Shown here: positions 3,522 through 9,992 of the stretch, piece after piece
Layout of the letters: every line of letters starts with the position of its first letter
How positions within the stretch are numbered: position 1 is the stretch's first letter
DNA from: Rothia nasimurium
GTDB taxonomy: Bacteria > Actinomycetota > Actinomycetes > Actinomycetales > Micrococcaceae
Assembly: GCF_014217215.1 (NCBI RefSeq)
Contig: NZ_CP056080.1
Span: 1,860,001-1,924,000 of the forward strand
Direction: 5' to 3'
DNA: 64,000 nt
Notes under the pieces: model-generated
What the model saw: only the letters and a program-made list of their open reading frames with translations
The model's database searches: none
What the model was told of the DNA's origin: nothing
Program-made: the position numbers and the translations under genes

Positions 3522-3529
3522 GGTCCCGC

Positions 3530-3645
3530 GCTTGCACACCCGGTTCTCAGTGAGGTGTGCCAGGTCTTCACCCAGGGCACCCCACCGCGAGTGGAGGGTT
3601 GCCGGCCAGCTAGCTGGGGCTTAGCGCTGGTTCTCTTGACCTGTC
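3530..3645 (-). ncRNA. SAM-IV riboswitch upstream of metY
   Basis: On the minus strand the leader carries the SAM-IV signature: AGCCCCAGCTAGCTGG, then CCGGCAACCCTCC, then GGTGGGGTGCCCTGGGTGA. The closing helix P1 is a perfect 6-bp match, CAGGTC with GACCTG (plus positions 3638-3643 and 3561-3566). A further 3' hairpin, GCACACC with GGGTGTGC, is characteristic of SAM-IV as opposed to SAM-I. Between it and metY lies an imperfect hairpin (3493-3501 with 3512-3521) followed on the minus strand by AGATTCTTTTCC, which could be the transcription-stop arm. SAM-IV riboswitches are known from actinobacteria, where they control sulfur-amino-acid genes. Confidence 0.9.
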
Positions 3646-6077: not shown

Positions 6078-7073
6078 ATGTCTGCTGACCCCATTGATCT
6101 ATCACCGCGCATACCCCATCAGATTCTCACCTCACTACTCAACAAACCCCGCTACCGAGCCAAGTGGATGCCTTACGTTCAAAGGCGTCGCGGAAACACG
6201 ATTAATCAAAGAGCGGTAGCAGCCTTTATCGCAGGTGAGCTCTCCGATGCTTTGGATCAGGAAATCAGGCCCCAAAGATTTAAGGACCGTATCTCCCGCG
6301 CCCTTAAGGGCGAGGCAATTAGCGACACTACGGCGCAGCTCTTTATCTCGACCTTTGAGTTTACTCAGCAAGAAGCGCAAGAGCTCCAGCGAGCGCTATC
6401 AAGCTACAAAATGAACCTACAGGTAGCGCAGCGGTCGACTGTCGCCTCCGCGACTAAAGTTCCGGCAACCGGTAGGGGCCCCTATCGTTCTCTCTCCACC
6501 TTCCTTGAAGGTAAGGTGGATCGGTTCGGTTACTTACACGGAGCCACTATTACCGAGGTTATTCAGGCAGAAGCAGAGACGGTGGAGCAAATTTTTCAAA
6601 ACTTTGAGTCAGCATCTATCCAGTGCACCATGCTTGAAGGGGGCGAACTAGTCGAAGTCTACCCCTCAGACAGTATGACTCCACACGCTAACGATAATTC
6701 TGTTCACCGGTTAGTTATCCGACCCCCCCACCCCATCCGCCGGGGACAGATTCACCAGGTTCGCTATCATCTAACACTCGATAGAAAAGCCATGATAGAA
6801 AGCAACGATACCGAGAACACGATTACTTTCGGCCCCTTCTCCCCACCGCGCTTTAACATCAGCCTCAGACTAGAGTTTGAAGAAGCCCCTCACAAAATAA
6901 AGCAGCTATTCTGGGACCGTAAGATGACAGATGCAAACCTTTGGGAAGCACAGGATCTAGAGATTAGAAAAACATACTCGGCCTACTTCCCCCTTATTGA
7001 GGACACTATTTACTCCCTTGAGTGGAGCTGTGATGCCCAAGCTGCCCGGCAAGCCTACGAAATGGGGAGCTAA
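6078..7073 (+). CDS. Unknown protein A of a tandem paralogous pair
   Basis: I do not recognise this 331-residue protein. Residues 40-108 form a helical, positively charged segment with the core KDRISRA (69-75), followed by an STFEFT stretch and a helix ending QELQRAL. The following gene has the same pattern (KDRVSRA, KTFDFS, RSLQQAV), so the two are paralogs. This part looks like a helix-turn-helix or similar small helical fold. Residues 130-325 are predicted mostly beta strand, rich in alternating hydrophobics, and end in a short Trp-containing strand (YSLEWSC). There is no signal peptide or membrane segment. The start ATG has GAAGG 13 bp upstream. Base composition is clearly lower in GC than in neighbours, which suggests acquisition. 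It probably forms a two-gene operon with the next gene. Confidence 0.8.
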   Translation: MSADPIDLSPRIPHQILTSLLNKPRYRAKWMPYVQRRRGNTINQRAVAAFIAGELSDALDQEIRPQRFKDRISRALKGEAISDTTAQLFISTFEFTQQEAQELQRALSSYKMNLQVAQRSTVASATKVPATGRGPYRSLSTFLEGKVDRFGYLHGATITEVIQAEAETVEQIFQNFESASIQCTMLEGGELVEVYPSDSMTPHANDNSVHRLVIRPPHPIRRGQIHQVRYHLTLDRKAMIESNDTENTITFGPFSPPRFNISLRLEFEEAPHKIKQLFWDRKMTDANLWEAQDLEIRKTYSAYFPLIEDTIYSLEWSCDAQAARQAYEMGS

Positions 7074-7075
7074 TC

Positions 7076-8035
7076 ATGCAGTATTCGCGCAAACCTCCGC
7101 AAGAAAATGATGATGCTCAGCATCAGGTCATGCCGAAACAAACCCACCTACAACGCGACAGTAAATACCTTAACTCCCTTCATCTCACCAGCACTATTCT
7201 CTGCGCGGCACTGTTTGAAGAAAAAAGTCGCAGGGTTTGGGAGCAGTACGCTAAAAACAAAGAACTCAGTAGCGGTTCTAGCATCCCTGTTCGAGCAATC
7301 GCCCGTGCCATGAGTGACTTTGAACATAGAACCTACGGGTTAGAGGTATCCCCTCAGCAGTATAAGGATCGAGTGAGCCGGGCAACCTCCACAGGCCAGA
7401 TGAGCATGGAAACCCTCGACCTACTCTGCAAAACCTTTGATTTCTCTCAAGAAACGGTACGCTCCCTACAGCAGGCCGTTATGCACGGTTTCGATGATTC
7501 TGAGTCACTCCAAATCATCCGCACCATTGCTCAGGTTATGGTCTCAAGCTCATACTTTGACGTCTACCTATCAGAGACAGATCCGGTCGAATTTGAGGTG
7601 AAGGTAACCCTAACATTACTGAGCTTGGAGGCAGGTTGTTCTGCGGTGCTCTTCCCCTTCGCTGACATACAAGACATCACGTGCGAGACTCCGGGCGTTC
7701 ACGTTTTATCAACCCCGGTTGCAGATGAGTGGATCTTCTTCCTAGATGATTTCGTCCCTCCTCAGGAAACTTTTATGCTCCGATTCATCATGCGCGGACG
7801 CGTCAGTAAGACACCGGACGGCTTCTATACCGCTAGGTCTCCCTTTTTTATGATTAGAGTCTTTTCCACGGGTATTAAAGTCAATACAGGAGGGGCAGAG
7901 CGAACGGTGCGAATCGAAAAGACCCTTGCCACAGATTCCGAAAGCACCCTGGTAGCTTCCGAAACAGTGACGGACTACCTCACCTACTACTGCCCGGCTA
8001 TTGACGATAGCTCTATCGTTATCAAATGGAAATAA
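7076..8035 (+). CDS. Unknown protein B of a tandem paralogous pair
   Basis: A 319-residue protein of unknown function, starting 2 bp after the stop of its paralog, so almost certainly translated from the same mRNA. Residues 70-135 match the helical region of protein A (core KDRVSRA at 97-103, then KTFDFSQE). The C-terminal part (about 145-319) is again a beta-rich domain and closes with a short strand, SIVIKW, echoing the EW ending of protein A. The N-terminal 30 residues are polar and look disordered. No catalytic motif, signal peptide or transmembrane helix is visible. Sequence similarity outside the helical region is weak, so the copies are old or evolve quickly. A DNA- or RNA-binding sensor role is possible but not shown. 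Confidence 0.8.
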   Translation: MQYSRKPPQENDDAQHQVMPKQTHLQRDSKYLNSLHLTSTILCAALFEEKSRRVWEQYAKNKELSSGSSIPVRAIARAMSDFEHRTYGLEVSPQQYKDRVSRATSTGQMSMETLDLLCKTFDFSQETVRSLQQAVMHGFDDSESLQIIRTIAQVMVSSSYFDVYLSETDPVEFEVKVTLTLLSLEAGCSAVLFPFADIQDITCETPGVHVLSTPVADEWIFFLDDFVPPQETFMLRFIMRGRVSKTPDGFYTARSPFFMIRVFSTGIKVNTGGAERTVRIEKTLATDSESTLVASETVTDYLTYYCPAIDDSSIVIKWK

Positions 8036-8104
8036 TATTTTTCCTTATCAGGACCAAAAACGCCCTATGCGACATAAGAGAGACGTTGGTGTCCATAAAG
8101 TAAT

Positions 8105-8425
8105 AACTAGATACCAAGGGTTCTGACAAATACCCCGTGAACTTTTGGTCTTGGTAGTGGCAAAGGCTCCCGCTGGCTCCCATCATAGAGCCACGCGAGT
8201 CCCCTAGTTTCTATGGCTCTAGCCCTGTTTCAGGGTTCTATGAGTTCAGCGGTAGCAGCCACGCTACTACCAACGTGGGGCTTAGAGGTAATAGTGCGAT
8301 AAGCCTCTGAGCCCCGCCGAGGAGACTGTAACCCCGACAGCTCCTCATAGCTGGGACAATCTGCAGTAGTCCTGGCGACTCAGAAGGTGCCTACTCCCTC
8401 ACCGGGAGTAGGCACCTTTCCTTTT
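8105..8425 (+). ncRNA. Highly structured stand-alone RNA, family not identified
   Basis: About 310 nt between convergent genes is packed with inverted repeats and ends in a textbook plus-strand terminator. The stems are TTGGTAGT 8151-8158 with ACTACCAA 8266-8273; TAGAGCCA 8186-8193 with TGGCTCTA 8214-8221; CCCTG/CAGGG 8223-8235; a 12-bp helix 8277-8288 with 8304-8315 containing one G-U pair; and GAGGAG-A-CTGT with ACAG-CTCCTC 8319-8346. An alternative pairing, TACCAAG 8112-8118 with CTTGGTA 8150-8156, would compete with the first. No open reading frame is convincing. It lacks the signatures I know for tmRNA, RNase P RNA and SRP RNA and is not a single rod as 6S RNA would be. The raiA-motif and Ms1-type RNAs are classes worth testing. 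The 5' end is uncertain and no clear promoter is seen. Confidence 0.7.
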
Positions 8426-8428
8426 ATA
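8384..8428 (+). terminator. Strong rho-independent terminator of the structured RNA
   Basis: A perfect 15-bp stem (8384-8398 with 8404-8418) with a 5-nt loop TCACC is followed by TCCTTTTAT on the plus strand. On the minus strand the stem is followed by CTGAGTC with no T run, so it serves rightward transcription, that is the RNA at 8.1-8.4 kb, rather than the convergent gatB. Confidence 0.9.
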
Positions 8429-8486
8429 CCAACAGATGGTCTCTTCCCCTGAACCGTTAGGTCATGGTCCAGGGGGTAGAAGATGC

Positions 8487-9992
8487 CTAGCCTTGAACGC
8501 CGAGCTTCTCCAGGATCAGCTCGCGCACACGGCCTGCATCGGCCTGACCGCGGGTTGCCTTCATGACCTGGCCGACGATAGCGCCAGCGGCCTGAATCTT
8601 ACCGGCACGAATCTTGTCGGCAACATCAGGCATAGCCGCCAGAGCATCGTCGATAGCGGCGGTGAGAGCGCCGTCATCAGAGACAACAGCAAGGCCGCGC
8701 TTCTCAACGATTTCGGCAGGTTCACCTTCACCATCAATGACAAAGCCAAGTACCTGGCGGGCAATCTTATCGTTGATCTTCTTAGCTTCAACCAGCTTGT
8801 TCAGCTCAACAACGGTCTGGGCGGTGACGCCGGTTTCCGTCAGCTCAACCTCGCGTTCCTTGGCGATACGAGCGATTTCGCCCATCCACCACTTACGAGC
8901 AACGGACGCGGGAGCACCGGCGGCGACGGTCTCTTCGATGGCGTCCATAGCACCAGCGTTGACCACGTCGCGGAACTCTTCGTCCGAGAAGCCCCAGTCG
9001 GCCTTCAGACGGCGGCGGCGCTCGGCGGGAGGCTCGGGCAGCTCTGCGCGCAGGCGCTCAATCCATTCGGTGTCGGTAACCACCGGAACCAGATCGGGCT
9101 CGGGGAAGTAACGGTAGTCGTCGGCATCAGACTTGGGGCGGCCACTGGTGGTCTCGCGGGTGTCTTCGTGCCAGTGGCGGGTTTCCTGAACAACCTTCTC
9201 GCCTGCTTCGAGGACGGCCGCGTGACGCTGAATCTCGTAGCGCACCGCACGCTCAACCGAACGCAGGGAGTTGACGTTCTTGGTTTCTGAGCGGGTACCG
9301 AACTCGGTGGAACCCTTGGGCATGAGCGAGACGTTAGCGTCGCAGCGGACGTTACCGCGCTCCATGCGGGCGTCGGAGATACCCAGGTTCTTGACAATTT
9401 CGCGAATGGCAGCCACATAGGCGCGGGCCAGTTCAGGAGCCTTGTCGCCCGCACCCACGATGGGGCGGGTAACAATTTCAATCAGGGGAACACCGGCGCG
9501 GTTGTAGTCGACCAGGGAGAAGTCTGCGCCCTGAATACGGCCAGCGGTGCCGCCCTTGTGGGTCAGCTTGCCAGCGTCTTCTTCCATGTGGGCACGTTCA
9601 ATCTCAATGGTGAAGACGGTGCCGTCCTCCAGCTCAACGTCCAGGGACCCGTTAGCGGCGATGGGCTCGTCGTACTGGGAGGTCTGGAAGTTCTTGGGGG
9701 TATCGGGGTAGAAGTAGTTCTTGCGGGCAAAGTGGCTGATGGGTGCGATGTCGCAGCCCAGAGCCAGACCCAGCTTGATAGCTGATTCAACAGCCTTGCC
9801 GTTGACCACCGGCAGCACGCCGGGTAGGCCCAGGGAGACGGGGGTGACATTGGTGTTCGGAGTATCGCCAAACTCGTTAGGAGCGGCGTCGAACATCTTG
9901 GTCTTGGTGTTGAGTTCTACGTGAACCTCGAAGCCGAGTACGGGGTCGTACTTCTCCATGGCTTCTTCAAACGACAGGATTTCGTCAGACAT
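8487..9992 (-). CDS. gatB: Asp/Glu-tRNA amidotransferase subunit B
   Basis: Subunit B of GatCAB, which binds mischarged Glu-tRNA(Gln) or Asp-tRNA(Asn), activates the acyl group with ATP, and lets ammonia from GatA convert it to the amide. The 501 residues have the usual layout: a cradle domain starting at [10 protein letters not shown] near residue 20, the ARKNYFYPD segment near residue 105, the [10 protein letters not shown] segment near 290, and the helical tail domain (YqeY-like) in the last 150 residues, which contacts the tRNA elbow. Its ATG follows the gatA stop directly (TAAATG), implying translational coupling. Last gene of the gatC-gatA-gatB operon. Confidence 0.97.

Follow-up and report, generated by a model that had tools for sequence, protein, structure and literature searches.

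A folded RNA between ORF2 and gatB

The window, that is, the whole stretch of 64,000 nucleotides of Rothia nasimurium DNA that was analysed, carries a cassette with the order oligopeptidase gene, ORF1, ORF2, RNA, and gatB. Its features are as follows.

6078-7073, plus strand: ORF1, 331 aa, a helical N-terminal part followed by a beta domain, of no known family
7076-8035, plus strand: ORF2, 319 aa, paralogue of ORF1; its end at 8035 is the left flank of the RNA gap
8068-8085, plus strand: putative promoter box, heptamers TGCGACA (8068-8074) and AGAGACG (8079-8085) with four bases between
8096-8101, plus strand: putative -10 box TAAAGT, 17 bases past the TAAG of the repeat
8102-8425, plus strand: structured RNA predicted by folding, probable start near 8107-8110
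8113-8149, plus strand: P1, 11 bp; its loop (8124-8138) contains ACCCCG
8151-8273, plus strand: P2, branched, with an 11-bp base and the inner loop 8200-8208 UCCCCUAGU
8275-8317, plus strand: P3, 15 bp; its loop holds GUGCGA at 8294-8299
8319-8346, plus strand: P4, loop 8330-8336 AACCCCG
8350-8376, plus strand: P5, from the minimum-energy fold
8383-8425, plus strand: predicted terminator, a stem of 16 pairs (8383-8419) and then a T-rich tail
8487-9992, minus strand: gatB, a housekeeping gene convergent with ORF2

The segment 8085-8425 folded at -157.4 kcal/mol with a z-score of -8.8 (0 of 100 shuffles as good), and with the terminator excluded (8105-8376) the z-score was -6.1 (0 of 200 shuffles as good). 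Helices P1 to P5 and the terminator were taken from the minimum-energy structure, and the start of the RNA was placed near 8107-8110 because the putative -10 box lies at 8096-8101. Neither strand of 8102-8425 has a stop-to-stop frame longer than 50 codons; together with the strong fold compared with shuffles, this confirmed the claim of an earlier note on this DNA that a structured RNA lies between the convergent genes. Its assignment of the RNA to the plus strand, with an end at a terminator, held as well: the T-rich tail was present on the plus strand only, and the terminator therefore faces right. The stretch is thus a strongly folding and apparently non-coding one that ends in a predicted terminator, and it is very likely that an unlisted structured RNA with its own promoter is real at this site.

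A switch built from two mutually exclusive pairings had also been proposed. Both pairings exist letter for letter, but the folding energy does not support a switch, with the first pairing lying 11.6 kcal/mol above the minimum at a mean pairing probability of about 8e-9. The complementarity of the 5' strand of P1 to the next 25 bases, a crude count that does not decide on a switch, was 6 for the window RNA and ranged from 4 to 7 across the 14 others described below.

No Rfam family matched the RNA at the gathering score, in line with the earlier proposal that it lies outside the routine classes, and the three matches at E up to 10 were all far below their own gathering scores. There was no match to raiA, 6S/Ms1, tmRNA, RNase P, or SRP RNA, whose models (Ms1 especially) were presumed to be in the copy of Rfam searched, nor to RNAIII, whose model was assumed to be there. 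The covariance model of 6C RNA (RF01066) gave no match at the locus; it gave none in 35 genomes either, a weak genome-wide search that scored no more than 105 candidates in each genome and whose control gave a signal in 1 of 14 genomes and above the cut-off in 0. BLASTN of 8080-8430 found no match in 58 other genomes (34 of the same genus), phages, or plasmids. Among the literature matches listed for Rothia and RNA terms, which is a thin test, no paper on the RNA itself was found; the Rothia ncRNA candidates named in passages of PMC7160235 are other ones, and gatB is never mentioned there. Elsewhere in the window, Rfam placed a SAM-IV riboswitch at 3523-3641 on the minus strand (101 bits).

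Counterparts in the genus and their promoter element

Of 35 genomes of the genus, 15, among them that of the window, have a relative of ORF2 beside gatB; the stop codons of ORF2 and gatB lie 320 to 721 bases apart at these loci. Against 60 shuffles apiece, all 15 RNAs folded better, at z-scores from -3.7 to -11.0; the 15 cassette genomes are related, so the counts are not independent. The occurrence in relatives that the earlier note had proposed to check was observed, in that 14 relatives have folded counterparts with their own promoter at the same place. Among the 20 genomes lacking ORF2, adjacency was traced in four (G028, G018, G007, and G032), in each of which the oligopeptidase gene directly adjoins gatB. 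The gap before gatB in G032 (L045) contains several hairpins and AGTGCGAG, and these hairpins are perhaps a remnant of the RNA. Against the five R. nasimurium-group genomes compared, identity was 99% for gatA, 97% for gatB, and 91-92% for the oligopeptidase, and 48-49% for ORF1 and 39-42% for ORF2. By sequence comparison, the trio of RNA, ORF1, and ORF2 is changing far faster than the neighbouring genes, and allelic replacement and fast change are both compatible with this divergence.

The 11 RNAs with GUGCGA in the P3 loop, its defining feature, were named type A. The remaining four (G017, G029, G004, and G025), named type B, are without GUGCGA by eye and have other hairpins in common. The longest stem around GUGCGA measured 15 bp in the window, 13 in G016, 11 in G030, and 10 in G002, and was reached by 0, 0, 1, and 1 of 2000 shuffled flanks respectively. 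Six close relatives have an 8-bp stem, reached by 54 to 81 of 2000 shuffled flanks, and the 6-bp stem in G005 is unsupported, since shuffles reached it in 492 of 2000 cases. P3 stems of unrelated sequence enclose GUGCGA.

The covariation that had been expected in relatives was clear only inside groups of relatives; RNAs of different types were unalignable. In a group of seven close type A RNAs, six of them distinct, the pairs of P3-P5 held in 96.9% of cells, and four pair changes were double-sided compared with a shuffle mean of 1.4 (11 of 500 shuffles reached 4); further pair types in P3-P5 of this group showed no excess. Over the whole RNA, RNAalifold found 11 of 109 pairs changed on both sides, with a small covariation term of -0.8. 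The covariance model R1, made from the same seven RNAs, was significant only for those seven in the 35 genomes and missed the other eight. A smaller R1 search gave the P3-P4 region of the window 12.4 bits (E 0.44), and its best place, at 17.5 bits (E 0.035), was in type B. A MAFFT alignment across types misplaced P3, so no cross-type alignment was used as evidence. We infer that the 15 RNAs descend from one by their place, promoter, layout, and loops rather than by a homology test, because the R1 model misses the other types.

The 15 gaps all begin with TGCGMYR-TRAR-NGMGACR, followed by 10 bases (9 in G025) and TANNNT, so that 17 bases (16 in G025) separate the middle TRAR from the -10 box. 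Counted from the first base of the ORF2 stop codon, this promoter-like element, conserved in 15 of 15, lies at a distance of 28 to 177 bases. When the pattern was scanned in the 35 genomes, it was found at 16 places, 15 of them at the cassettes and one extra in G029 (R. amarae). It occurred 0 times in the 20 genomes lacking ORF2, and a reversed control pattern 0 times in all 35; the pattern was derived from the 15 cassettes, and the new information is its absence elsewhere. Box sites with up to two mismatches occurred in 31 of 35 genomes, but such weak sites mean little because controls were as frequent at two mismatches. In G033 (R. endophytica 56QC2O2, L073), TGAG replaces TAAG in the promoter, ORF1 and ORF2 are both broken, and the RNA still folds (z -4.0).

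These observations bear on whether the locus is a decaying or neutral run of hairpins whose promoter serves no functional RNA. The lack of sequence similarity between types and the broken genes of G033 would fit such a history. However, all 15 RNAs fold, one group shows compensatory changes, and the promoter layout is exact; these points argue for a functional RNA, and G033 keeps the fold, which leaves neutrality very improbable.

ORF1, ORF2, and control of the RNA

The earlier account was partly right about the RNA but overlooked that it is tied to two paralogous genes upstream and to the repeat promoter. ORF1 and ORF2 accompany the RNA, are paralogous over 280 columns, and in one genome run together as one 742-codon open frame, all of which can be read directly from the sequences. 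The beta domain of ORF2 resembles the N-terminal domain of M1 aminopeptidases. Pfam gave no WYL or other family in 13 ORF1 and 14 ORF2 sequences, there was no match to a toxin or defence family, and the PDB searched by ORF sequence returned nothing useful. The fold lists were filled by the beta domain and hardly covered the helical one, and no helix-turn-helix was confirmed. All 9 type A rows of ORF1 have KDR and all 4 type B rows have KDS, a difference that tracks the first half-site, which reads TGCGA or TGCGC.

The ORF1 profile matched 13 of 295 genomes within the family (12 of the genus and 1 of another) and 11 of 394 within the class, the window's own included. A scan of named genomes gave 12 loci, all in Rothia: five in R. 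nasimurium, one each in R. terrae, R. amarae, R. aerolata, and R. endophytica, and three in MAGs. One other genus, with very large genomes, has a single ORF1 relative with the same N-terminal signature (L102-L109, L114, and L115). Five neighbourhoods of distant ORF1 relatives had no box and, by eye, no second paralogue (one was cut by a contig end), and no viral contig encoded a relative.

The box also stands before other transcription units. The extra R. amarae box (L110, 2449-2640, minus strand) precedes a predicted 158-nt RNA with a terminator, three CCCC runs, and a z-score of -4.2; 26 of 200 shuffles had as many unpaired CCCC. In G002, G011, G012, and G027 (L120-L123), four close relatives that amount to one observation, a box agrees with the pattern at 16 of 17 positions and has TAGAAT 11 bases further on. 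This one-mismatch box lies 90-92 bases upstream of a gene whose product has 238 residues and a signal-peptide-like start, a gene present in 11 of 35 genomes. In the other seven carriers (G000 and G017 with the cassette, five without), the best site scored 11 to 14, and the best box score in 238 control pieces, from which pieces with a box-like core were left out, was 15. A second gene of this kind follows the boxed gene. The window's own genome (L128) has a relative of the 238-residue protein, 95% identical over residues 40-218, without the usual start and without the box.

Adjacent paralogous regulators that form a heterodimeric activator, with a natural fusion in Arthrobacter, are described for PafBC in PMC6789036. 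ORF1 and ORF2 are likewise an adjacent paralogous pair, fused in one strain, whereas PafBC has WYL domains, which ORF1 and ORF2 did not match, and acts on DNA-damage genes. We consider it likely that ORF1 and ORF2 control the RNA. They would bind the heptamer repeat at 8068-8085, probably as a pair, and a protein on this repeat would cover the -35 region, as activators do; once bound, they would activate the RNA promoter rather than repress it.

Alternatively, the target of ORF1 and ORF2 may be the RNA: together they could form a ribonucleoprotein, or a unit akin to a toxin-antitoxin system in which the proteins are restrained or guided by the RNA. The co-occurrence of RNA and proteins, their joint difference in type, and the GUGCGA loop conserved in type A are all consistent with such binding. 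Nevertheless, the best-conserved element across the 15 cassettes sits ahead of the -10 box, where transcription has probably not yet begun, the box recurs before other units, and neither protein resembled a toxin or defence family. Binding to the RNA is therefore quite unlikely in our view.

C-rich loops and known systems

Taken as a whole, the locus is tentatively read as a regulatory cassette, a proposal held at slightly short of even confidence, in which ORF1 and ORF2 activate the promoter and the RNA acts antisense through its C-rich loops. The transcript, of about 315 nt, would end at its own terminator and work in trans: its C-rich hairpin loops would base-pair with G-rich parts of target mRNA leaders, much as in S. 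aureus RNAIII and mycobacterial 6C/B11. Hairpin loops with CCC were present in 15 of 15 RNAs, one to five in each, a count that includes terminator loops and has no shuffle control. All 15 RNAs had more unpaired CCC than the shuffle mean, and 13 had more CCCC; taken one by one, with enrichment set at no more than 3 of 60 shuffles reaching the observed number, only 5 RNAs were enriched in CCC and 4 in CCCC. Unpaired GGG was 0 in all 15 RNAs and near 0 in shuffles too, and was thus uninformative. The runs in the loops of the window RNA are of 4 Cs, and some relatives have a longer run in one loop. Among 29 crudely predicted window genes, 1 is preceded by GGGG and 10 by GGAG, and this rarity of GGGG counts against a general action on ribosome-binding sites. 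Inspection by eye showed no conserved pairing of the RNA loops, either with the exported-protein gene's leader or with the ORF2 ribosome-binding site. Antisense action through the C-rich loops is plausible, with the chances evenly balanced.

The RNA could also be regulated and trans-acting by another route, binding another protein or RNA polymerase, or using the GUGCGA loop. This would agree with the modest enrichment of C-runs and the rarity of GGGG before window genes, and GUGCGA is the sole loop kept in type A, although that type is defined by it. The four type B RNAs, however, lack GUGCGA, CCC loops are present in all 15 RNAs, and no protein-binding RNA family of Rfam, 6S included, matched; we give this route a low but appreciable chance.

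Several known systems resemble the favoured circuit of two-protein activator and antisense RNA. 6C RNAs are defined by two hairpins with six or more loop Cs, and the window RNA, with runs of 4, does not reach this number. Its likeness to the 6C/B11 RNAs of actinobacteria, such as mycobacterial B11, lies in the C-rich hairpin loops; it differs in having fewer Cs per loop, in being three to four times longer and branched, and in giving no RF01066 match. The csRNAs of streptococci are regulator-controlled sRNAs with UCCC motifs, and both they and LhrC are short RNAs, present in several copies, under two-component systems. The Rothia RNA would be akin to them in its proposed regulator control and its UCCC motifs, and differs from these short, multicopy RNAs of two-component systems. 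In PMC4132741, LhrC of Listeria is described as a regulator-controlled sRNA with UCCC motifs, and in PMC10470900, two C-rich loops of B11 act in the repression of an mRNA leader with a G-run. In Staphylococcus aureus RNAIII, the C-rich loops 7 and 13 bind mRNA (PMC2837412). The Rothia RNA shares with agr RNAIII the form of a large structured effector RNA with C-rich hairpin loops and neighbouring regulator genes. In contrast, it has no Rfam match, its neighbours are ORF1, ORF2, and gatB with no agr genes, its putative regulators are of another family, and no peptide is known. C-rich hairpin loops that pair with ribosome-binding sites are a hallmark of RNAIII, and the window RNA has candidate loops of this kind.

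A bolder reading, speculative and rather doubtful, is that the locus is an actinobacterial counterpart of agr-RNAIII made of unrelated parts: a two-protein activator with peptidase-like sensing, an effector RNA with C-rich loops, and agr-like divergent alleles at one place. The oligopeptidase gene next door and the exported-protein gene driven in some strains would belong to the same reading. A regulator with an effector RNA is a known kind of system, and neither these parts nor their combination was found described among the literature matches listed.

The locus illustrates how a structured RNA may hold its position and layout even as its sequence becomes unrecognizable. If the proposed circuit is true, Rothia would have a dedicated regulatory RNA circuit, and this would suggest that long effector RNAs with C-rich loops and their own activators arose outside Firmicutes.
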